Below, in pieces: positions 13,668 through 59,400 of a stretch of 64,000 nucleotides of DNA. Every line of letters starts with the position of its first letter. The stretch's first letter is position 1. The stretch covers positions 3,851,001 through 3,915,000 of the forward strand of contig NC_134682.1 of assembly GCF_024713945.1 (NCBI RefSeq). The letters are read 5' to 3'. Position numbers and translations under genes: made by a program. Source of the stretch: Dermatophagoides farinae (taxonomy: Eukaryota > Arthropoda > Arachnida > Sarcoptiformes > Pyroglyphidae). Under the pieces are notes generated by a model. That model saw only the letters and a list, made by a program, of their open reading frames with translations. It ran no database searches and was not told where the DNA came from.

Positions 13668-16558
13668 GTTGTTTTATCTTTATTCAAATGACAATGGTAT
13701 TAACAAGATGATTTTAAAGGCCAGATTAGCAATAATAATCTTGAGAAGAAATTGATTCTTTTATTGATTTTTTTTTACCACCATCATTGAATATATTCAC
13801 AACATTCTGGTTTTTTTTGTTGATTTGTTTCTCTCTTTGTTTCTTTTTCTGGTCACCATGGTGATTGTGGTTTGGTGTTTTAGAATTTTTTTGTTTTCTC
13901 AGTATCCCCTTGCTCATTAATTTAGCCGGATTGGTGACGATCATCCACAATTTTTTTTAGTCAAAAAAAAATTTTTTTTTTCTCAGAAAATGTAGCCATC
14001 GGATGTGGAATGATTAACAAACAACAATGACGACGAAAAAAAAATGATAATTAATCACAACAACAGCGACACATATGTGACACATAGATTATAATCTAAA
14101 ATGAAATGAAAAAATTGGTGATTAAATTTCAAAGACAAAAGAAAAAAAAATTAAATTTTTCTAAATGACGTCCAAGAAAAAAAAATCAAGACATTTTTTT
14201 TTCACCATCTGCCATTGCATTCATTCATTCATTCATTCATTATCACAATTTCCCATAGAGAGTTGGCCGCTAAACACTACCATCAAATAAAACAAAACAA
14301 AAAAAACCATGGTTATCATCATCAACAGATATATAAATATTGTCATGATGATACATACCATTACAACCGAGAAAAAAAAATTCAACACAAAAAATCAAAA
14401 AAAAAAACGACGAATCCATTTAAATTAATTCAATTATGAACAGTGGAAAAAAAATCTGAAATGGAATCAAAAAAATTTTAAACAAAAATGAGAAACCGAC
14501 AATTGAATTTGAAAGAAGAAAAAAATCTTTTTCGGCTGTAAAATTCCGGAAAAAAAATGATGATGATGATGATGATTATCGGTCATGAAGAAGTTGAACA
14601 TTTTTCATTGAAAAACAAAATAAATTCTTTTCCATCATTGCAAATTGTTGTTTGCCAAAAACAATCACATTTTGAAATCGAAAAAATCTTTTCTTTTTGT
14701 TTTCATTTTCATCATTTTGCACTTGGAAAATTGTTTTTTTTCCTTTCTTTATTTCTTTCTTTCCTGCTCGTTCATTGTCCGTCAATGTTGTTGTTATTTT
14801 TTTTTTGTTTTATAAAAAACGAAATTTTCAAAACTGGATAAAGTGGTGAGATAAAAAAAAACAAAGAGAATAAAGAATAATGTTTCCATCATCTATCAAA
14901 TGAACATTATGTGATTGAGAATATGAGAATGACAACAACAACAACAGCTTGTGAACGTCTCATTTTTTTTTTGTTGATAGCAAATTTTTTTTCTCTCTCA
15001 TTCATTTCGAGAATCAAAACGTTTTGTTTTCGATATTCGAGAATATTTTCGTAAACCATCATCATGATAAATCCCGGATAATTTCATTTCAAATGAATAT
15101 TATCAGAATTCATTGTATCATTTCAATTGGTTCTCTGGTTATTTTTATTCATTTTGTCAAAATCATTACAGATTTCAATGGAATATAATTATAATCAAAA
15201 ATCCAAAACGAAGAAATTTTAATCTTCAGTCCGTTTTCATGAAATTGGTAATTAATGTTATGATGAAAAACAACAACAACAGCAACAAATTTGAACATTC
15301 GTGATTCGAGCAAACATGATTTTCTAAATCAATCGACATCAAATCATGCACGCACACACTTGCACACACACACATCATTTGATCAAAAAAAAATGGATTT
15401 CATCATCAGTCGATTAATTCTGAATTGTGAAAGTAAAAAAAAAACAACAACAAATAGAAATTTTCTGCACTAATATTCAATTGTGATTAATAACACTTGC
15501 ACATGATGAAAAATGTTTGTGATATGATGATGATGGAAATAATTGTTTTTTTTTCATTTTCATTTTTTTTTTGGCCATGAAAATCATGTGCTATTATATA
15601 TTTATCAATTAAGTTGAATGAAATGATTCACAACAAATTCGCGATTGTCGACAAAAATTATTTTTGCCAATTTTTTTTTTCGTTCCCCATATATTCGAAT
15701 GTTTGGACAAAACATCGAAATGGTTTTTTTTTTACCACTGGAATTCCAATTCTGTATAGTGAGTGTATATATATAGCCGAATAAAAAAACGAAAAAGAAT
15801 CATTAATAAATTGTTCTTTTTTTTTATTCTTTCATTTTTTTATTATTATTATTCATCCATTCCCATTTATGTTCATATATACAAGTAATAGCAGAATTTG
15901 GAATTTTTTTTTTTTGCTGTTTGAAAATCTATATCCATCCGAAAACAAACAAACAAACAAATGCAAGAATTTGTCCATTACATAATACACTGATGACAGC
16001 TGAATTGATTGTTTATCGATTATCATCATCATCATCATCATCATCAACGAATGATTCTGAATTTCAAGGTCCGATTTAATAGACGCCGAACAAAAAATCA
16101 CCACCACCACCACCAACACCAAAATTAATCTATTCTTTTATCAAATTCAAAAGAAAAATGTCTTAATGCATTTCTAGATGTTCATTGGTTTGGTTTTGAG
16201 TTCAACTTTCTAATACAAAAAGTATCATCATCATCATCATCATCATTCATTACACATTTGGACCAAACAAACAAACAAACATCATCATCATCATTAAAAT
16301 GAAAGATTCTATTCTTGGAATCAATTCCACAATAATCCATTACTGTGGAAATCAAATGGTTGATTGAACAACAATAACTAATAGTTCATTATCAGTACCT
16401 ATATTCTTTAGTATGTGAATGAGAGAAAAAAAATGAAAACTTTTCATCATTGAAAAGTTTTCACTCGATTCTTTTGTTGTTGTTGTTGTTGTTATTGACC
16501 AATTTGTGATTCATTAGAATTTCGTTTTTTGTTTGCTTGAAACCAAAATCGATATATT

Positions 16559-44369: not shown

Positions 44370-47300
44370 TTATTCAAGTCCACAGCATTTGTTCCATAAT
44401 GCTTTCGGATATTGATTATCTTCATAGTTTAGTCCTTGATAATTGGCTGGTGTATTTTATTTATTTTTTATTTTTTTTTTGGCAATGATGAGTTTGTAGA
44501 GAAAAAAAAAGTTTTTCCATAGAAAAATCAAGAATAAAAAAACGGAATAAATTCATAGGAAAAAATGAACGAAAAATAATAATAATTACCTCGCCAATTA
44601 CCGATGCGAACATTCATTTTGTTCAAATCATCCAAAGAAAAACGTGGGATAATCATTTTTCGTTGAAATTTTGGATGTTCCACTGTTTCATTGAATCGTT
44701 GATAATCGATTGGCGTCCATATTATACCATCGGGTGAATAAAAATATGCAGGACGATCATAATCGATGGCGAAAAATTTTCCCGTTGCCAATTCGAATCC
44801 TTCAAATGAATCAATCGATCTACCAACAATATGCCATGCATTTCCACCAGAATCCGAATAATAACACAAATAATGGCTATGAATGGTTTCAAAAAATAAA
44901 ATGTCAAAAATGATCACCAAAAAAATTAATGAAAATTATCATAATTTATAATAACTACTATTACTACTACTACATCTTCATCTTTACTCATCAGCTGACA
45001 CTTTTAATCAGCTGGTGAGTAAAGAGAACTAAGAAAAAAAAAAGAATAAAAAACCTTCACTTACTTGATATTTGAAGTAGCATCACAAAAGTAAATAATA
45101 TTCGTATATGGATCAATGGATATATGGCGATTCTTTATTGTAGTATCATCCGTATAATGAGTTTGAAATTCGAGTGCTGCCAAAAGAAAATGGAAAAAAA
45201 GAGAGATAATAGAAAATTATATGACAAAAGTTTTTCTTATTTTTTTTTCTCTCCAAATCATCATTCTCTTCATCATAATCATTATATGATTCCGAAGAAA
45301 ATCGAAACACAAAAGTATTAATAGAATCATCAAAAGCAATGAGAGAGAGAGAGAGAGAGAGAGAGAAAAAAAAAAACAAATTAACTTACATTCAGTCGAT
45401 GCTGGCCTAGTGGATGATTCCAATTCTTTTAGATAACAGCCATATAGTTCAAATTTGACAGCTAGATATTGATTATGAATATTGCCTTTGGAATTGGAAT
45501 CGATTTTCTGTTTCTTCGTCATTATTGTCGTCGTTGTTTTTGTTGTTTTTGAACTTGAAACACTATCTATTATTATTCGAATTAAACGAGCTTCAATTGG
45601 CCACTGTAACCTTGATTCACCAATCGCTTTGATATTTTGATCATCAACATTATTGTAGAGGATTTTTGTTGTATTCGTTCCTTGATACCAAACTTTGCCA
45701 TCAAAACTATAATCCAAATGATATGTATGTATACTACGTTGATTTTTGATTGATTTGAATTCTATTGATACTAGACGTGTTTTTTGTCGAAAATCTATCT
45801 GAATATAATTTTGTCCATTATTCAATGCTTGATTTGGATGGCCATGACGCCAATTACGCCATGCTGGTGACCACCATGATGATGATGATGATGAATTTGG
45901 CCGTGCAAATTTTGGAGCAAAACGTTGAGCAATGGCCGATGATGCTGTTATCTGATCATCATGTATATGGCCATCTAACATTCCCAATGGATTATTGCAT
46001 TCTAAATGATGACAACAAACAAACAAATGAATCGGAAATAATGTCAATATAAATGTGACATGATAATAATAATAATAATAATGATAAAAATAAAATTATT
46101 GACAACATTAATTCAGAAAAAGATTACATTGTGTATATGTGTGTGAGTATTTTTTTTTTTTTTTTTGGTTTACTTGTTTGTTTGCTTGTGAATAATAATA
46201 ATTTTCAAAGTTTTCACGATTTTTCTATATATGTTTACTTTTTGGACAAATTTTTTGTTTTGAAAACAAACAACTTACCAGTACTATGTGTTCGATAATT
46301 CATATGTTTCATTTGGCTACAGGGAAATTTTGTATCACTAGATACACGAAAATGTTGACACATCATACGAAATGGTGTTATAATTGACAGCTCTTTATGA
46401 CCATAACCACGTATATTACGTGGATCAATTTGTATGGTAAAATTGACAATAAATTGTTCATTAAATAAAATCCATGGAAACTAATAGAACAAGAATTGAA
46501 AAAAAATGAAAAAACAAAAATTATTAGTCTTGTTTTTGTCAAATTAAAGATAATCCAATTATTTTACCAAAATATCCGTAGATCCATCGGCTAATCGCTT
46601 CAATTTTGGCAATTGTCTTGTATTGGCCCAATTAATTCCGCTTATTTCAACAAAATCCGGTGTAAACAAACGCAATACTGGATTAGATGGTTCGGCATTT
46701 GAATCCGGTAAATGTCGAATGGTCGCCATCACTGTAAATGTTTCATTTCGATCCAAAACAGGCATTCGTTTTTTATAACGAATGTTGACATCTAATTTTG
46801 GATTGGGTCCTTCACCTTCGGACAATCGAATTTTTGCCTCCGTACGAGTGGTAATCGTATTGGTTAAATTGCCATAATGGGCTTCAAATTCCAATCGATA
46901 GACATCATTTTCGGTCAATGAAGGATGATCGGTTAGTTCGGCCAATACTTCGATTGTTAAAACATCGGCATCATCATCATTATCATTGAGTGCACTGTTT
47001 GTCATGTTACCGATGTCATTATTATTATCACTGTCAAGATTTTGATCTTTTTCACTATTATTATTATTATTGTCATTGTTATTGTTGATGTCAATATAAT
47101 AAGTGTAACCAAAATTGGCAAACCAGCCAAGCTCCGCATTGATCAGATTTGTTTGATTAATATTAACGGTTGAATTCAACCGAATTTGTGGTTCATTATC
47201 CAATGGACAGGGAATATTAGCTCCACCATGAACTAATCGTAGATCATAAAGTACAATATAAGCACGATTCTCATCTGTTTGACCACGAATAGTGACTGAT

Positions 47301-50300
47301 AGTTTTCCAGTAGAATATACAGGAATTCGAATTCTAAAAGGGATCCATTTTCGTTGTCGAATTTTGAAACCAATACCTTCACGACGATCATTCCATTTGG
47401 CTAGTATAACCCGTGCACCTTCGGTAATGGGAAAATGGTCCGATATTTGTTGCTGGTGAGCAACGGAATTATTTCCTGCTTCATTAGGGACTACTGTAAG
47501 AGCTAATTCATTTTTCGTTTCCAATGGCCGTTGATAATGACCAATCAGTACAGTTCCAGAGACAATAAATGGTAATGAATCGGAAAACGATTCTGTCGGA
47601 CGAATTGCAAATGCCAACCTCAGCAAATTGTCATTATTATTTCCATTTTCAACAGAATCATTATGGTTTTGTTGTTGTTGATTATTCAAATCAGTGTGGC
47701 AAATCATTCCCAATTCAAATTGATTAGGTTGAACATTCAATGACAATGGTGAATAGCATGGATAATTTCGGCCCACTTTAATGAATGCAGCATTACACAT
47801 TTTGTATGAATTCGATCGATCCATAGCAATCGTCAATTGAGTCTGGTGATTTTTTTCAAGTTCAATATCAAAATAGAAAAGCTTTGGTCGTGTATGATGA
47901 ATCAATTTATTGTTACCATGAGGTCTGAGTATCACTTTACGAGGTTCGGACAATTTTCGCCGGCTAATTTCCATTGATATATCATCATTCGCATTTGGTT
48001 TCGATCCCACCGGTATTATTATTTGTTTTGTAACGGTAATGTCTTTGTGGCCATAAATGACTTTGATACTTATGGTTTGATTACTATTCTCAGCCTGGTC
48101 TAACATTCTAATCATGGCCATAAATTCTATACTATTATCATTACGTTCATCGCGTTCAGATTTTCTCCTATGATTACCAAAATTAGTTATCATATCCAAT
48201 TGTAGTACGGCTCGTTTGTTAATGCCAAATGTTTCAAATGCATATTCAGCTTTTTGATTTGCTTCAACACAGGGTAGATTATATCCAATTCTATGAATCC
48301 ATAGGCCACATACTGAAATGGCAGAATTTGGATCATCATCATCACCACCAATTTCAATACGTAATGGTCCAATTGTATTCGGTCGAGTCAATGTACGAAT
48401 GAGAATGTTTGTTGAAAAACCAGGCAGGATAAATGTATCAGTTTCGTTGAATAATTCAGCATCTAAATCGATTGACATATCGGCAGCAATCGTTTCGGGT
48501 AATAATTCTGAAATGTTTAAATTTATTTGCTCCGATTTGATGATGTTATCTTGGATGTTTGAGGCTGAATTTGAAATTATGTCAACTCGAATTGGATATT
48601 GCTTTAGTGACTGTTGTTGTTGTTCATTATTTGCTCCAGAATCAGCAATCATGATGGCAAAATTTGTCAAAATTTTCTGTCTTACATTCGAACCGTTTAC
48701 GACTGAAATTGATCCAAAATCGATTCTTGCTCGATCATATGGCCGAGTATTTATTTCGTTTTCTTCTTTTGACATTTTTCTATTATTATAGCCATAAACA
48801 ATTTGCTTTTCATTGATGGTTTCTCGTTCCACACAAGTGCATGGCATCGTTTCAGCCACTCGTATGACAGAAAATCGACAGATTTTCAAATCAGGTAAAC
48901 TATCTGCAGCTGTTGCCATATCGGAACTGATTGTTATAAGAAAATCTTCAAAAGCAGCATTCGGTTCGAATTCTAATTCTACATCAACTGCTGCGCCTCC
49001 TAAAACAATCAAATCTGACCATTTTACTGAACTATTTGTCGACAATTCGATATTCGATGATGATGATGAAGTTTCATTATTGCCATTTTCATTAGACAAG
49101 ATGTTTAGTTGATTATTCATGATCATCAATGGTTTTGTTTCGTATCCGCTAGTCACTTGAATATGTTCTGGTTTTATTGAATATTCTATTTCAAAGGTTG
49201 AATGAATTAGTTTGAAGTCTATATAAAGATTTTAAAGTCTAGAAAAATGAATACTTACCACCAGGTTTGACATGACTATCAAACGGTAATCGGAATGTAA
49301 TCTCGGCAACTAAATCATTATCATCCAATAAAAATGGATTCACTAGACGGATAAAATTTATTCGTCCAAAACGAAAAAGAAATTTATTTTTTTCTAAACG
49401 TTGTGGCTTCAAACTTATTGGATTAGTATACGGTATGTTGATACCATTTTCTTGATACAATATTCTAGCTGAACAAGGTATGAATGGAAGTTGTGGTGTT
49501 CCCATTCCATCAATGGTGATAGCATAATCGGTAAAGACATTTTCATCTTTGAAATCACGGAATTTAGATAGAATTTTCAACTGTGTCAAACCGCCTTTGG
49601 TCAAATCGTGCTGTGTGAAATTGGCAGCAGATCCAATCATAAATGATTGCAAACGTTCGTTATTATTTCGACCGACAATAGTTATGTTGAATACTCGGGT
49701 AAAATAGCTACGTTTAGTGATAAAAATATCCAATTGAAACGAAATATTTCTGCCAATATTTTCCTCAAAATTCATTGCATAAACTGGAAAACTAAAACTG
49801 ATAACATTATCCGGATTTTTCATAAATAACCGAGATTTTTCTCCATTGTTGGTGACTGTATTCATATTTAGTGTACTAAATGTATATGATTGCATTGTTG
49901 CACTTAAATTTCGATAACCAATATAATGATGTGGTGAACTAGGCATTGTTACATAATTCGATCCAAACTTGGTAACACTTATCAATCCTAACGATAACCT
50001 GTTATCCGGTTCATATTCATAAGATGTTTTATTCAATTCAATGCGGACCGGATCAGAACGAAACTGAAAATTGGCATCGAATCGAAAAATCGCTGCACTA
50101 TCCAAAGCAATCTTTGTTGGTTCTTCAACAATGTCTACTTCACAGAAAACCTGATCATCTTTCTGTTGACAAACAACAGAAAATAGGCAACAAAAAAAAA
50201 CAAAATAAAAATATATTTCATACATGTTTGTGGCTATACTTACATTCAAAACTGAAACAGTTGTGATTTCCGATTCAGCTACATATGTAAAACTTCCTTT

Positions 50301-51696
50301 CGTATGTTCCATACCAACAATAAGTGAATGTTTTTTCTTAGCTCTTCGTGGTTTACGAAATAATATGACCGAAAAACAAATGGACAATTCATTTCGATCT
50401 TGACCATTGTTTTTAATAGTACCAAAATCCAATGTCAACCGATTATACTATACAATTCGTTCGTACAAATGGTAATTGATTTTGAAAATTTTTAAAATAA
50501 AAAAAATTTCAACAATACTTACGACATTGGCGGTTTTATTTGATAGGAGAAATTTTGGTTCTGGTATGTTAAATTGCATGTCATTAGTTTCATATGGCAT
50601 TGAAAAATTATATAATGATAATGATGAACGCTTAACACTCAACGGGGAATCTAATGTCTGTATATCCAATACAAGATCACTTGAACCTTTTGGGAATCCA
50701 ATATCTAACTTGTAATGTATTGAACTTCCAACTTGTAAGGAACTTGTTTCACCAGCCACTGTACGTAGACGAAAATTTATACCATTCAATTCTAGTCCAT
50801 CATCATTTGAACTCAACGCAGACAATGATGATGGTGATGATGAATCATCCGATTCAGCTGATGATGCAGATTGTCGTTTGATACGGTCCAATTGATTTTG
50901 AATATTAACAAATATTGTCAACGTTCGAGATGAATTTTTATTTCGATAATAATAATCCCCAATGGTTTTCAATTCATTCCAATTTGGATTCATTGCTATG
51001 ATCATCAATTTGTAATGTTGTTGTTGTTGATAATAATGATCCAATAGTTTATTGTCAATTAATTTTGGTTTATTGATGAAAATTTCACCAGTTGTTGAAT
51101 TGATTCGAAATATTTCTTGTTCATCCTGTTCAATGATTTCATATTGAATCTGTGCACAAGTACAATTTTCAATATTTAAACCAACACAATCATCATTATG
51201 AATATCATCATCATATGCATGAGCCTTAAATATTGGTCTATGATGATGGATCGTTTCTTTTTTCAAATAAAGATTGATTATTTTTTCCGAAAAATATGGC
51301 TCATGTAAATCATCTGTGTGAAAATCAAAAGAAAAAAAAATGATAAAAAATTTTCATCATATCAAGTGATTATTTCATTCATTCATATTCTATTCATTCG
51401 AAAAAATGTATAGAAATAAGACTGAAAAAAAACCTGGAGAAAAAAAATTGTCATCTCAAATTTTATTGCTTACCAAATTGATCACAATGTGATCCATGCC
51501 AACATGGCATACATTTACAATAACTGTCATCATTCTTTATTCCATTATCATTATCGATACAATCACCATGGATGCAAATATTACCATTCTTACATGATGA
51601 TGATGACTTTGCATGAACAAAATGACAATGAAAAATTGTCAACAATATTAAAATAAAAAAAATGACTAAAGTAGCAAAATAATTTCTTGATAACAT
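44370..51696 (-). CDS. giant secreted EGF/cadherin-like/repeat-array/discoidin protein
   Basis: Ten coding exons, GT-AG and in phase: 51696-51474, 51313-50523, 50447-50244, 50162-49259, 49218-46568, 46480-46279, 46001-45390, 45176-45065, 44876-44590 and 44434-44370, giving about 2,016 residues. A signal peptide (1-29, LVIFFILILLTIFHCHFVHA) is followed by an EGF-like module (about 34-72). A cadherin-like domain follows (about 80-215, FRINSTTGEIFIN). RIKR-Q at about 218-221 looks like a furin site. The main body (about 407-1658) is an array of roughly 180-residue units marked by C-x12-C ending in PC (for example CGLWIHRIGYNLPC). The discoidin/F5-8 C domain is at about 1660-1800 (CNNPLGMLDG, WSPAWRNW, VKFELYGC). 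The tail (1863-2016) contains YFYSPDGIIW, which resembles an Asp-box. No transmembrane helix is visible, so it is probably an extracellular matrix or sheath protein. The last exon is the least certain. I recognise no named orthologue. Confidence 0.8.
45341..45366. repeat. GA dinucleotide microsatellite in an intron
   Basis: Thirteen GA units just inside the intron after the discoidin exon (donor at 45389) of the giant secreted-protein gene. Confidence 0.88.
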
Positions 51697-52363: not shown

Positions 52364-54718
52364 TCAATAAAAATAGATAATTGTTATAGTGATCATGACC
52401 ATGAATACATGAATGATGGATGATGAATAATGGTTAAATTGAAATCCAATTGATGATGATTTCGATGAAACTGACGGTGTAAATGGATAGAAAAAATCAG
52501 CCGGTAATTCAACACGAAATGAAGGTGCCGGTGCATATTTCGGCACAAATGGTTCGCTTATGTCTATAAAGTTTACGTATGTTCGTAAATCGATCGTTAA
52601 ATTACAATCATCATTATCATTATTATCCACATTATTATTCGATGATGTACATTTGTAATTTAAAATGGATTTCTTTCGTACAATTTCCACGCCAATCATT
52701 CGATAATGGATTTGATCGATACGATTAATGAAAAAATTGTACATTAATTCGGTAATTATTTCTTCTGTACATTGTAAATGATTTTTATAATGATTAGTCT
52801 GACTATTTTTATTATTTTTATTATTATTCATTGATAAAATAGTGGAATTTATTTCTCGTATTAATGGCCGAATCCAAACTATAGAAGTATCATTTTGGAT
52901 TAAATCCAATCTAGTCGGTGGATATGATCCGATAAATAAATAGCTTGAATTTTTTGTTCGATTATCATCATCATCATTATAATAGTCGAAAAAATCCAAA
53001 TATTTACCAACACTAGATTTGATGACCGTGCATGACATTGATTTTGTTGTTTGTTGTCGTTGTTGTTGTTGTTGTTGTTGATCAGCCGTTGTATTATCGG
53101 TTTTATTCACAGTCATCGTTTTTATAATTTTATTCAATGATAAACGACATATTTCATAACGATTCCAGCCAAATTTGAAAATTGAATCGGCAATTTTTTC
53201 ATCATGATCACATAAACCTTTTGCATAGGTACCAAGAAGAAAATTTCTTTTTTCAATTCGATGAAAAGTATGGTTTTGATCGATTCGTATGAATTTGATT
53301 TCCTGACCATATTTATAACCTTTAGTTGTGGGCCGATTCTGTAACCAATTTTCATCATTATCATCGGTTAATGATGTTTTTGTTATTGTTGTTGGTAATT
53401 TCCTTCCAAACCAACGGAATGTTACATTGAATTTTTGTTGAATAAATTTTCTAGATTGCAAATAAATGGCCGAAAAATTGCTTATTGAAGGCAAATCGAT
53501 TTGGCCTATCCATATTTGTATTCGTCTTATGCCCTGTATACCTTCATGCCATACTAAATAATCAACTTTTTCAACAACATTATGGCAAATTTTTGTCTCA
53601 AAATCGTAATATGGTTGTTCATAATGTTTTCCATCCGTTTCTATTCGAACAAATTTATAGCTACTATTATTTGAACTGGTGTTGAATTTCTCAGAATTAA
53701 TAAATGTTTGATATATAAAAACATTTGGCTGTAGATAGGTTCGATAATCAAAAAATTGATTGCCGGTACAATCTTCGGCTAAATTCGTTGGAACAATACG
53801 AAGACAAATCGATTGATAATCTTTTAAATATTTCACTATTTCAAGACGGCCACTACAAACATCCATTCGATTATTGATGTTGTTAAGGCTATTGATTGAA
53901 ATTGGTAATTTCCAATGGTAATATTCTAGTATGGTATGATTTTTTTGTTGCTTCTGTTTTTGTTGTTGATTACTTAATGTCCGAAAACGGAAACGAATTA
54001 TCGGAGAACCGGATTTATATTGAACCAATGATTGGATTTTAGTTATATTTTGTATTATTCGTTGTTCATAATCATCATTAACATCATCATCATCATCATC
54101 ATCATTGAAAATGGATTTCATTGGAACCACAATTTGACCAAATCGAAATTTATGTTTTGATTCTATTCGATCTAATTGATTTCTTTCAATAATAATCGGT
54201 TGATGGACATATGATTGCCGTCGGAAAGTATTTTCTTTGGCCAAACATAATAATGGTGATGATTGATAGAATAATTGCTTTTGATTACCGTTATTATTAT
54301 TAGTAGAGTCTAGACACATTGATAATGATGGAATCTCGGATATGTCCGATATGAATTTGGATTGTTCAAATTTCAAACATTGTCCAAATGAATAGCGATC
54401 AATTTCTGTACAATTTAGATCACAACAGCAATCTATGTCACAATAGTCCAGAATAGAATCGCATTCACAACCTTTTGAATTGTTGGACCATTTAGCAAGA
54501 ATTTTTTCAAATTCTTCACGATATCGTATAAATTGTTTATCATTTTTGTTTAATTTTGCTTGATCATCTGTAATATTATTCAAATTCGTAGAGGTAGTAG
54601 CAATGTTTGATGGCTCCAAGGCAAATAACAGCGGTATATGACCATCGATCAAAATTAAATAAATTGTGATGAATGAAATTGAAAATTTCGAAATTGCTTC
54701 GATGGACAGTTTTTTCAT
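52364..54718 (-). CDS. TCTN: Tectonic family protein (ciliary transition zone)
   Basis: One uninterrupted frame of 784 residues from the ATG at 54718. I prefer this start because it opens directly on a signal sequence (MKKLSIEAISKFSISF...PLLFALE). An ATG at 54775 adds 19 residues, overlaps the end of B9D2 and would bury the signal. A Cys-rich motif at about 84-114 (CECDSILDYCDIDCCCDLNC) is the family hallmark. The conserved tectonic domain follows (VCSGRLEIVKYLKDYQSICL, EDCTGNQFFDYRTYL, GYKYGQEI near residue 460). A C-terminal hydrophobic helix (SSIIHVFMVMITITIIYFY) suggests membrane attachment, as in TCTN2 and TCTN3. Tectonics act with MKS and B9 proteins at the ciliary transition zone, gating membrane traffic. 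The C-terminal third is interrupted by Asn, Gln and Asp tracts. Which of the three vertebrate paralogues it matches best cannot be settled by eye. The gene is intronless and only 28 bp from B9D2. Confidence 0.88.
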   Translation of the reverse strand: MKKLSIEAISKFSISFITIYLILIDGHIPLLFALEPSNIATTSTNLNNITDDQAKLNKNDKQFIRYREEFEKILAKWSNNSKGCECDSILDYCDIDCCCDLNCTEIDRYSFGQCLKFEQSKFISDISEIPSLSMCLDSTNNNNGNQKQLFYQSSPLLCLAKENTFRRQSYVHQPIIIERNQLDRIESKHKFRFGQIVVPMKSIFNDDDDDDDVNDDYEQRIIQNITKIQSLVQYKSGSPIIRFRFRTLSNQQQKQKQQKNHTILEYYHWKLPISINSLNNINNRMDVCSGRLEIVKYLKDYQSICLRIVPTNLAEDCTGNQFFDYRTYLQPNVFIYQTFINSEKFNTSSNNSSYKFVRIETDGKHYEQPYYDFETKICHNVVEKVDYLVWHEGIQGIRRIQIWIGQIDLPSISNFSAIYLQSRKFIQQKFNVTFRWFGRKLPTTITKTSLTDDNDENWLQNRPTTKGYKYGQEIKFIRIDQNHTFHRIEKRNFLLGTYAKGLCDHDEKIADSIFKFGWNRYEICRLSLNKIIKTMTVNKTDNTTADQQQQQQQRQQTTKSMSCTVIKSSVGKYLDFFDYYNDDDDNRTKNSSYLFIGSYPPTRLDLIQNDTSIVWIRPLIREINSTILSMNNNKNNKNSQTNHYKNHLQCTEEIITELMYNFFINRIDQIHYRMIGVEIVRKKSILNYKCTSSNNNVDNNDNDDCNLTIDLRTYVNFIDISEPFVPKYAPAPSFRVELPADFFYPFTPSVSSKSSSIGFQFNHYSSSIIHVFMVMITITIIYFY

Positions 54719-54746
54719 ATTGTCAAATTTGCTATTTAGATGATGA
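54719..54746 (-). promoter_or_regulatory. 28-bp spacer between B9D2 stop and Tectonic start
   Basis: Read on the minus strand: TAA, then a short AT-rich stretch containing CTAAATAG, then CAAATTTGACAAT before the ATG. It is far too short for an ordinary promoter plus polyadenylation site. AAATAG could serve as a splice acceptor. This implies a shared transcript, an alternative splice product, or a Tectonic promoter lying inside B9D2. Confidence 0.45.
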
Positions 54747-55443
54747 TTAATGAGTTTCAACACCGAATTTCTCAAAATCTTTCAGTACAATATTTAGATC
54801 AAGACAAACGATGCCCATCGTTTCTGTATGCAATTTAAAACGTTGTTCATGTGAATATATTAACCATTCTTCGGTCAAATGCAACGATTCACCATTGAAT
54901 ATATTGGCCAATCGATCGATAATGGAACCGATTGGACGCCAAGTATGACAACGAATTTGTTTAGAACCCGGTTGTGATGGAATGTTTACCACACCGTAAC
55001 TGATTAACGATGTCTGTTCGAAAGAATTTCGATGCCAAACTTCAATCAATAATTTTGGCCAACCTGAATTAGAATTGAAACAATGATTGATCGATATAAT
55101 AATGTGAATATTCAATGAATGCAACTATTTTTAATGAATTTACCTTGAATTCCTTTGGTTACTAGATGTAAATCGATTGGATGTGACCAGCAGATGAAAT
55201 TATTCGACGATGATGATGATGATGAAGAGCCGTCAACTTGTGTTTGTCCTTCAGCTATACCTTCGAGAATTTTCCAACCAGATCCTAACCAACGTATAAT
55301 GGATATGAATCATTATATTATACACAATTCAATTCATCCATTGACTAATGCTTACCGATAATCAATTTCCATTTACAAAACAATGAATTTTCATTGAAAT
55401 TTTTACCACCGGTAATTTGTCCAATCATAAACACTTCAGCCAT
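54747..55443 (-). CDS. B9D2: B9 domain-containing protein 2 (ciliary transition zone)
   Basis: Three exons: 55443-55356, 55284-55144 and 55063-54747, GT-AG and in phase, giving 181 residues against about 175 in vertebrates. It starts MAEVFMIGQITGG, as B9D2 does. The B9 (C2-like) domain fills the protein: [72 protein letters not shown]. The end KDFEKFGVETH parallels the family's FDRYGVE ending, which separates it from B9D1 and MKS1. A poly-Ser insert is coded by the GATGATGATGATGA tract near 55210. B9D2 forms the B9 complex with B9D1 and MKS1 at the transition zone, where Tectonics also act; the next gene downstream on the same strand is Tectonic. Both splice donors and acceptors are clear, so the model is well supported. 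Confidence 0.92.
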
Positions 55444-56425
55444 TCGGCCATTGATATTTTTTCAATTCAAATAGTTACTCAATTCACAATTTCAAGATAA
55501 AGATGTTTAGAAAATTTATTTCTAAAATCTATATATATTTGTATTATTCCAATGAATGTTTGAAATGGAAATCAAATACAAAACATAACGGATGGTTACC
55601 ATGTCAACCTGAATTTGTATTTCCAACCATAATGGTAATAATAATCATATCGACCAAACCTTTTTGTGTTTGTGTGTGTGTGTGTCTGTGACATAACCTT
55701 CAGCTGTTAACAACAACTATTAATGCTGATTATATGCATTTATGTTCCACCATAATCATCAAAAATGTTTTGTTTTAATAATTATAATTATAATCATCAT
55801 AATCATCATCATCATCAGCATCATAACCATCAATATTTATTATTGAATTTTCAAAGAAAAAAAAATCGACAACACAATTTTATTGATTAAAATAATATTA
55901 CATGAATATAAAAAAAAACTTGTATGTATATCACAGAACTGAATGCAATTTAATTCAATGGCATTAATTTTGAGTATATATAATAGATATAGATGTGTGT
56001 TTTTGTTTGTGTTTGATTATACAATAATTGGAATATGAGCATCAATTCATTGATAATAAAAAAACAAAAACAAAAAAAAAGAAACGAACCCAGATTTTTC
56101 GTTTCTTTCGTTTTCATCAAAATAAATGAGTAAGATATATTTTTTGAATGAAACAAATATGATGATGATGATGATGAAATAAAACGATTCTCAAGAGTAA
56201 TAAATATTATAATAATTCATCATCAATTTCATTTTCAATCATCGAATATAATAATAATATTGATGATCGATACAGAGTATTGTGACTAGAAGAAATGTAA
56301 TTGAAAATACGATATATTGACATTTCGAATCTTTCCAAATCTTTTGATTGAATTGAAAAGTATTCCATAAAGAAATATTTTTTTTTTTTATTACAAATGT
56401 TGACACCATTTGTATTGATTTCAAT
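55444..56425. other. DAGL 3' UTR and B9D2 upstream region
   Basis: On the minus strand this is downstream of DAGL and upstream of B9D2. A minus-strand AATAAA at 56387-56392, about 35 nt after the DAGL stop, is a likely polyadenylation signal. The rest is AT-rich with GT and ATC repeats and presumably includes the promoter of the B9D2-Tectonic pair. Confidence 0.5.
56387..56392 (-). terminator. polyadenylation signal of DAGL
   Basis: AATAAA on the minus strand, about 35 nt after the DAGL stop codon at 56426. Confidence 0.45.
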
Positions 56426-59400
56426 TTAAATCACTTCAGGCAATGATGTTTTTCTATCATTGATTTGTTCATATTGATTTGATGATGATGATGATGATGG
56501 TGTTTGAATTTGTGTATCAAATTGATTATTTGATATGGTCGAAACGATTACTACCGGTTTTTGTTGTCGTTGTCGTTGTTGTTGTTGTTGTTGTTGTTCA
56601 CAAACATCATCCGTTAGGCTAACTGTTTCAGGTGTTGCTAACGGTGCTTTTCGTTTTGCAATAAAACTTCGTAATCTACGTAAACGTTCTTCATTATAAA
56701 CTTCATCATTATTATTATGATTATCAAATTTTTTACGTCGATTTTTTCTTATAGCAGCAAGTTGTTCACTAGCAGTAGTTGTCATTGATGTTGCTGGTAT
56801 AGCCGATGCAAAACTTGTTTCCAACATTATTCTTTTGGAATGATGATGATGATGATGATGGTGAGACTGTTGATAGATATGATCATTTGTATCCTGTATC
56901 GATGAATAATATTTTGAATCATTATCGATACTATCATCAATACTATTATTATGATTATTATTATTATTGTCATCATTATCAACACCATCATCATCATAGG
57001 AATCTTCAGTTTTACGTTTAGGTTTTGGTGGACCCGTATTAATCAATAAACTTTCTAATGCTTCAAGTATTCTATCGGGCATATGATCACGAATCATGCT
57101 TGGTGAGATTAATATTTCATCAAAATCTTCATATCCAGCCCACAGTGCTTGTATGATGAATTGTTTTTGACCAATTATACGCCTTTTTGACATGATACAT
57201 ATCACATTATCATATATCATTATCAGTATATTTTATTTTTTGTTCACGTCATTGTAACCATGATCCAAAGGCGGCAAAGCAAAAAAAAACAAAGAAAAAA
57301 AATGATAAATATTAGATTGAGATAACAATTTTGGGAAACAACAACAACAAAAATTTTGAATTCAATCAAGCACACATAAAAAGCAAATATTCATTATTTA
57401 CCTCCATTTTGGTTCATATAGAAAGCTATATGCAAGTGTATGGGGAATTTTTTTTTTGGTTTGGAAAGTGTAAATTTGATTTGCATGAAGCAACGTACAC
57501 CATGATTTGCGTGGCCATAATCATTTGTGAAAAATTAAGTTTAATCAATATTAATTGATAATTTTTGTCAAAAAAAAGACTTACTCGGATTTATTTGGAT
57601 GAGCTTTGACTAGATGAATGATACTTCCAGGTGGATATAATGGTGTATGTACAGTGAGCTGAATGTTTTCATCATTTGGGTGTGTCGAAATATTTTCGAT
57701 TGGTTCCTTTGAAGAAAGATGATGATGATGATGTTGATGTTGTTGATGATGATGATGAGTTTGACTACTTGATGGACTAATATTTTGAGAATTACCATTA
57801 TTATTATGTTTACATTCGACAAAAGATTCTGTTACAGTCTGTGATATAATAATGTTGTCCGATTTGATTTTGAATTTTTTCACATATTCATCATGATTTA
57901 TATCACTGCTACCGATACGAAAACTTTTAAAAATAATTGGCCATTTACTCATATCACAATGTTTGATTGCTTTGATTAGATCAAAACGTAATTTTTCCAT
58001 CTGATGAAGACCAAGTCTTGGTATGATATCTTTGCCCAATACAATTGATATGACAAAATCTTTGGAATATTCTGCTAGATCTTGTGAAAGAAGACCGCCA
58101 GGTGGAGCAAATGCAAAACAGATAACATTCGTATAGATTTCTCGTAAAAGAACGGCCAAAATAGCAGCAGTACCGGCGCCTAATGAATGTCCAACAATTA
58201 TGATTGGATATTGATGATGACTATTGGTAGCTAGATTTCGTATTTTCAATTCTTCATTAGCTATTTCGATTATATGTTTTTCAATTAATCGTGATCGAAT
58301 ATAGGCAGCGGCTGCTACCATTCCTTTATGACCGTACCAATTTTCGCGTGGCGGTGTCAAAGGTAGAAGATCATATTCAGCATTCAAATCGGTAAGGACC
58401 TACAGCAACAAAAAAACAAATTGTCATAATTGCAAAATTAATTGATTGATTGAAAGACTTACATCATACAATGATAATGTTCCACGAATACTAATCACAA
58501 TGGACATTTTATCATAATCGACGGCAACAAAAAATGGTGGCTTTTCAATGGCAACATAATAGGTTATGTAGATAATTTTATAATCATGGTCAATACAAGT
58601 TTGTCGAATGGCAGCACGATTACAAAGGCAACAATTGTCCCCCAAAATATTATCACTTTCACGATAAATATTGACAAATTGTTGATCATCACTATCGATT
58701 ATTGTATCGGTATCGATATGACCACCACTACAGCATCTGGAACATTTAGCCCAACGAGAACTTTGATTTCCACAACATTTTATATGTTTCAATAAGTGGA
58801 ACCATTGTGATGGTTGATTGGCCACCATATACATTGGCCATCCATAAATGGCTAATGAATAATGAAGATAATGAATTAAATTATACACTTCTCGTATGAC
58901 CAGAACATGTGTTAGATCAAGAAATTTTGTTTCGGCAGTGATGGCAGCTCCAGAAAGAAATTGAAAAATTTTTGGCTCTTCATTATCGTTCATCATTCGT
59001 TCTTTTCGTTGTGATTTTTGCTGTACACGCATCAATGACAGTCCGGCTACAACATCCGATGGTACAACATCAAGATCACGAAAAAATTCTGATAATAATT
59101 TGGCTATTTCTGTAAATGAATTATCTCGACGATCTTTGACACAACAAAACCAACGACAACGATTTAGCCATGATTGTTGATATTTTCTTAACGCTTCACG
59201 ATGACGCCAATTACGATGAAAACTATTTGAACGTCGATATTTATATTTGGAATTTGGATTATTAAGACTTTCTTGAAAACGTTTCATTTTCACCCAGCTT
59301 TTGCCCGCATAATCAAATGCACACCATACAAATAGAATGAATGATGTCCAAATTAATAATAGAAAGATTTTCAATCCAATTACGATCCCTTTGGTCGAGG

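Follow-up and report, generated by a model that had tools for sequence, protein, structure and literature searches.

B9D2 and a Tectonic-like gene of the mite Dermatophagoides farinae lie head to tail on the minus strand and are rather likely to be one RFX-driven transcription unit that gives a dicistronic mRNA. The dicistronic form of the unit is probable, and it was perhaps inherited from early arthropods. Both genes lie in the window, the whole stretch of 64,000 nucleotides that was analysed. We infer that the mRNA is continuous, that its second frame is translated and that the arrangement shares its ancestry with one in flies. The original prediction had proposed a shared transcript. It is now favoured by one X-box-like site before B9D2, a chance-level score before Tectonic and an RFX-dependent fly gene model, and the dicistronic mRNA is still a prediction. 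The features of the locus are as follows.

52364..54718, minus strand: Tectonic-like protein of 784 aa, single exon (open reading frame list and Pfam)
54549..54554, minus strand: ATTAAA, the first AATAAA/ATTAAA hexamer 3' of the B9D2 stop, about 165 bp inside the Tectonic ORF
54719..54746, minus strand: intercistronic stretch of 28 bp without ATG; AG at 54733-54732 is a possible acceptor
54747..55063, minus strand: B9D2 exon 3, TAA at 54749-54747 (gene model from sequence)
55144..55284, minus strand: B9D2 exon 2 (gene model from sequence)
55356..55443, minus strand: B9D2 exon 1, ATG at 55443 (gene model from sequence)
55532..55537, minus strand: TATATA, a possible core promoter, weak given the AT-rich genome
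55595..55608, minus strand: X-box-like RFX site GTTGACATGGTAAC, its first base 165 bp 5' of the B9D2 ATG

The B9D2 gene (55443-54747) consists of three exons separated by GT..AG introns of 71 and 80 bp, and its predicted position on the minus strand was borne out. The spliced product of 181 aa matches the Pfam B9-C2 domain PF07162 at 178.8 bits (cut-off 27), with an E-value of 1.2e-52. The match covers profile positions 1-166 of 166, so the B9 domain is complete. A second B9 gene is present on contig C1 of the same genome and is taken as B9D1. The label B9D2, as opposed to B9D1, is our assumption from the human sequence. Relatives of B9D2 were absent from genome_contigs and viral_contigs, as expected of prokaryote and virus collections, and the search of solved structures gave a single chance match (E 0.7). 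An out-of-frame ATG lies 8 bp 5' of the B9D2 ATG and begins an ORF of 8 codons in overlap with the B9D2 start (55425-55451, minus); this could damp B9D2 translation. Further upstream of B9D2, a Lipase_3 match of 46.3 bits is found at 57581-58321 on the minus strand, which may belong to a gene for a diacylglycerol lipase. Just 3' of Tectonic, the open frames at 46562-51696 (minus) have EGF-like and cadherin matches, both under the Pfam cut-offs.

The X-box-like site before B9D2 is new here, and RFX binding to it is predicted from its sequence. GTTGACATGGTAAC fits our own pattern at 13 of 14 positions and is the sole site at such a level in 264 kb. Spotted by eye as a palindrome and scored afterwards, it reaches 11.5 of a possible 12.5, a value equalled by 0.06% of 3,120 background stretches of 250 bp. 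It has no exact match to any of three consensus patterns (RYYNYYATRRNRAC, the fly restricted pattern and the strictest fly pattern), being one base off by eye. On the reverse strand, 274 bp from the B9D2 ATG, GCTGTTAACAACAAC matches the fly restricted pattern. The three patterns occur 12, 22 and 1 times, respectively, in 264 kb. Across the genome, the X-box pattern with at most one mismatch has 57 forward and 60 reverse matches. These 117 strand matches, with palindromes counted twice, compare with 209 for the reversed pattern, and X-box-like sites are thus not enriched genome-wide. By arithmetic from the genome-wide counts, the chance of a site with at most one mismatch in the 250 bp 5' of a given ATG is below 0.0005. 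The RFX DNA-binding domain has 7 matches in the genome, counted exon by exon. The sole exact match to GTYRCCATGGYAAC in the entire genome (G000) lies elsewhere, at C2:5885581-5885594 (locus L024).

All seven ciliary genes that had been located in this genome were scored over the 250 bp 5' of each gene. Start codons were set by eye, that of TMEM231 being the least sure. The score was self-devised, with a maximum of 12.5, and a strong site was one of 10.5 or more; the background comprised 3,120 half-overlapping 250-bp stretches, drawn from 20 loci with both strands included. The best scores were 11.5 for B9D2, 10.5 each for WDR19/IFT144, TMEM67 and CLUAP1, 10 for B9D1, 9.5 for IFT57, and 9 for TMEM231, which places the B9D2 promoter at the top. 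Strong sites occur in 4/7 ciliary promoters and in 2.7% of the background stretches (binomial P 1.6e-5). The score was picked after the B9D2 site had been seen, and the six other genes are therefore reported separately; their mean is 10.0 against a background of 8.69 (P 4e-5). In front of ORFs, strong sites have a background rate of 8.1% instead of 2.7%, with 5/62 control stretches 5' of ATG-ORFs of at least 120 aa reaching 10.5, and this counts against the unit. Compared with these 62 stretches, P is 2e-5 for all seven ciliary genes and 0.0012 for the six without B9D2. An X-box code seems to be in use in this genome, because the six other ciliary genes score above background. An earlier form of the test, with a background of stretches 500 bp long and a reach of at most 1 kb upstream, gave 11.5 for B9D2 (0/966 stretches), 10.5 for CLUAP1, 10 for B9D1, and 9 for both TMEM231 and IFT57. 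The IFT57 value rose from 9 to 9.5 once half-sites below 4/6 were no longer dropped.

A consensus scan of the same promoters, which left out TMEM67, found RYYNYYATRRNRAC before IFT144 and CLUAP1, about 200 bp 5' in each case. The fly restricted pattern was matched at 44 bp in TMEM231 and, on the other strand, at 274 bp in B9D2, and IFT57 and B9D1 had no match to any of the three patterns. WDR19/IFT144 itself lies in the window, from 13667 to about 8719 on the minus strand (PF15911, 248.6 bits). Its X-box ATCACCATGGTGAC at 13852-13865 (minus) fits RYYNYYATRRNRAC at 14/14 positions and lies 198 bp 5' of the ATG. In the window, which is partly annotated, the only two scores of at least 12/14 each stand before one of the two ciliary genes recognised there. 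An X-box of the loosest consensus in one species was not predictive in the fly study of Laurencon et al. 2007 (PMC2375033). The 250 bp upstream of Tectonic score 8.5, which is under the background mean and at chance level, and the best score between Tectonic and the B9D2 X-box is 10, within B9D2 exon 1. The missing strong site before Tectonic argues only weakly, because IFT57 (9.5), TMEM231 (9) and B9D1 (10) also do without one.

The fly gene CG9227 is named tectonic, with human NP_085055 and C. elegans Y38F2AL.2 as its counterparts, and is counted among the B9-domain genes (Laurencon et al. 2007, PMC2375033). NP_085055.2 is B9D2 (Barker et al. 2014, PMC4092220). Therefore, one fly gene model held both identities. 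CG9227 has a conserved X-box, located 119 bp 5' of the ATG in D. melanogaster; the distance is 146 bp in D. pseudoobscura. The CG9227 reporter is silent when dRfx is mutated (PMC2375033). These data suggest that in the fly, too, B9D2 and Tectonic are joined behind one RFX promoter. The adjacency in flies is drawn from published tables and not from fly sequence; CG9227 may represent a fused model, or the older annotation may contain a naming slip. We assume that Y38F2AL.2 is mksr-2, a link that was not found in the literature searched. FlyBase now presumably holds two consecutive genes split from CG9227, namely CG42730 (B9d2) and CG42731 (tctn), and neither number was found in the literature searched. 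The mite locus is like CG9227 in having Tectonic-like and B9D2 identities at one locus and an X-box or X-box-like site upstream at a similar distance, whereas the passages on the fly gene contain no mention of two cistrons. In flies, B9D2 and Tectonic are MKS-module proteins, and both disappear from the transition zone when MKS1 is missing (PMC5087661). The pair had been thought undescribed as a unit; the CG9227 model is a partial exception (PMC2375033), and no other description was found in the literature searched. Both in this mite and in flies, the two partners apparently share one locus behind a single RFX site, with comparable distances to the ATG. This favours an ancient common unit over chance, and a dicistronic mRNA is its simplest form.

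The two complete same-strand ORFs are 28 bp apart (54746-54719), as originally stated. The assembly has 62.4 Mb in 22 contigs, with a G+C content of 30% over 264 kb; this composition and the B9D2 intron lengths would suit a genome of the dust-mite type. Dermatophagoides pteronyssinus has a genome of 70.76 Mb, a median intron of 75 bp and a median CDS-to-CDS distance of 542 bp (PMC7738191, Table 1). With that median and exponential distances assumed, about 3.5% of gaps are expected to be 28 bp or shorter. For this reason the spacing by itself is unremarkable and ordinary in a compact genome. The notable features are the partnership of both products and the single X-box, rather than the spacing. 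A codon score for tight tandem pairs in 264 kb was too weak, giving -12.1 for B9D2 exon 3 and leaving the B9D2-Tectonic pair unlisted; its 12 candidate tight pairs were left unused.

In the dicistronic model, an RFX factor would bind the X-box at 55595-55608 and start a transcript that crosses B9D2, loses its two small introns by splicing and continues through the Tectonic ORF. The same set of ciliated (sensory) cells would thus produce two MKS-module subunits of the ciliary transition zone. Ribosomes that leak past B9D2, or reinitiate after it, would translate Tectonic, and either route is possible from the arrangement of start codons. A joint spliced message from the B9D2 ATG has eight ATGs ahead of that of Tectonic, which would hinder Tectonic translation and speak against the unit. 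Three of them are in the B9D2 frame. The other five open out-of-frame ORFs of 6 to 18 codons, none of which overlaps the Tectonic start, and overlap was also absent in all 2,000 synonymous shuffles. Out-of-frame ATGs in B9D2 are somewhat fewer than expected (5 vs 8.1, P 0.026), a marginal result that was set aside. Position -3 is A at the Tectonic ATG and C at the B9D2 ATG. The first ATG of the Tectonic frame is at 54718; a proposed alternative start at 54775, inside B9D2, does not exist, as the triplet there is TTG.

The main rival to the dicistronic mRNA is alternative splicing from a shared promoter, which is not very likely. Here the RFX-driven transcript would yield separate mRNAs, that of Tectonic skipping B9D2. 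In its detailed form, of similarly low likelihood, either an exon further upstream or exon 1 of B9D2 would be joined to the acceptor AAATAG, with an exon starting at 54731. An AG is indeed present at 54733-54732, 13 bases 5' of the Tectonic ATG, and the first WDR19 intron appears to end in AAAATAG, so that such an end may work as an acceptor here. This AG would also be the candidate trans-splice acceptor if the pair were an operon of the nematode type with SL trans-splicing. Splicing of this kind would also explain Tectonic translation without leaky scanning. However, the pyrimidine tract of the candidate acceptor is poorer by eye than those of both B9D2 acceptors.

It is rather improbable that the pair is simply two independent genes of a compact genome. 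Tectonic would have its own promoter inside B9D2, and B9D2 would be polyadenylated inside Tectonic or through a variant signal. At a median distance near 542 bp, a few percent of gaps are expected to be this tight. The original prediction saw no room for a promoter between the genes, which holds within the 28 bp; a promoter could still lie inside B9D2. From 55520 to 53134 the coding strand contains no AATAAA. It has ATTAAA at 55135, in intron 2 of B9D2, and at 54554, within Tectonic. Among the variant poly(A) hexamers sought, AATATA is present at 54905 and 54861, both in exon 3 of B9D2. A separate B9D2 end could arise at the ATTAAA within Tectonic or at a variant signal such as the AATATA at 54861. 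In contrast, the X-box score before Tectonic is at chance level, and the fly gene model suggests an old linkage.

The dicistronic reading also depends on the identity of the second gene. The 784-aa ORF is very probably Tectonic, in part because the fly locus has the same partner. "Tectonic-like" is the tested name and membership in Tectonic is probable, because the defining core domain PF07773 (TCTN_DUF1619) was not found. The N-terminal domain PF25752 (DUF1619_N) matches residues 81-123 at 22.1 bits (cut-off 22, E 2.2e-4). This match is just over the cut-off and agrees with the original naming, and without PF07773 the identity is weaker than had been stated. The Cys pattern in residues 81-123 is typical of Tectonic. 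PF07773 had no match in the protein at E 1, and its six-frame search of the genome at E 10 gave zero matches anywhere, this locus included. The six-frame search with PF25752 also gave zero matches, missing even the copy in the window, and both searches are uninformative on paralogues. No match to the protein was obtained in NCBIfam, nor among solved structures at E 1, and a single-sequence fold prediction (mean pLDDT 32.1) was discarded. It is very unlikely that the ORF encodes a different protein, secreted or membrane-bound, that has a comparable Cys-rich stretch. The PF25752 score only 0.1 bit above the cut-off, the absence of PF07773, the lack of a structure match and the unusable predicted fold would fit such a protein. 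It is opposed by the E-value of 2.2e-4 to an N-terminal domain linked with DUF1619 in Pfam, by the partner identical to that in the fly gene model, and by the termini, which by eye comprise a hydrophobic, signal-peptide-like N-terminus and a hydrophobic C-terminal membrane segment. An in-frame read-through fusion of B9D2 and Tectonic is ruled out by the TAA stop and the different frames.

The vertebrate genes TMEM138 and TMEM216 presumably have separate transcripts and were reportedly described as a ciliopathy pair by Lee et al. in 2012. Like B9D2 and Tectonic, they are two unrelated ciliary genes lying head to tail; they are jointly controlled by an RFX factor (RFX4), as is proposed for the mite pair, and differ in being other genes, with an interval of about 23 kb and an RFX-bound element between them (PMC12148096, PMC3631122). 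TMEM138-TMEM216 may be regarded as a parallel in kind. The dicistronic transcripts of Drosophila, for which PMC2276209 cites 31 gene models from Misra et al., likewise have two complete same-strand ORFs at a short distance. They are annotated transcripts, whereas B9D2-Tectonic is known here from genomic sequence alone. B9D2-Tectonic is absent among five renamed examples of the 31 models (PMC2276209).

It is a tentative suggestion that the unit is ancestral to arthropods, with one RFX promoter and one mRNA for two ciliary-gate subunits, and that it was kept since the mite-fly split because MKS-module assembly is sensitive to co-translation or to a fixed stoichiometry. To our knowledge, animals that lack trans-splicing seldom show functional partners whose linkage is conserved. 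If B9D2 and Tectonic are one unit in mites and flies, the pair would be a natural test of whether a membrane subunit of the MKS module, Tectonic, has to be synthesised in a coupled way with a soluble B9 subunit. It would also be a test of how a second cistron is translated after a long first one. In fly genetics, B9d2 and tctn alleles could each hit both genes.
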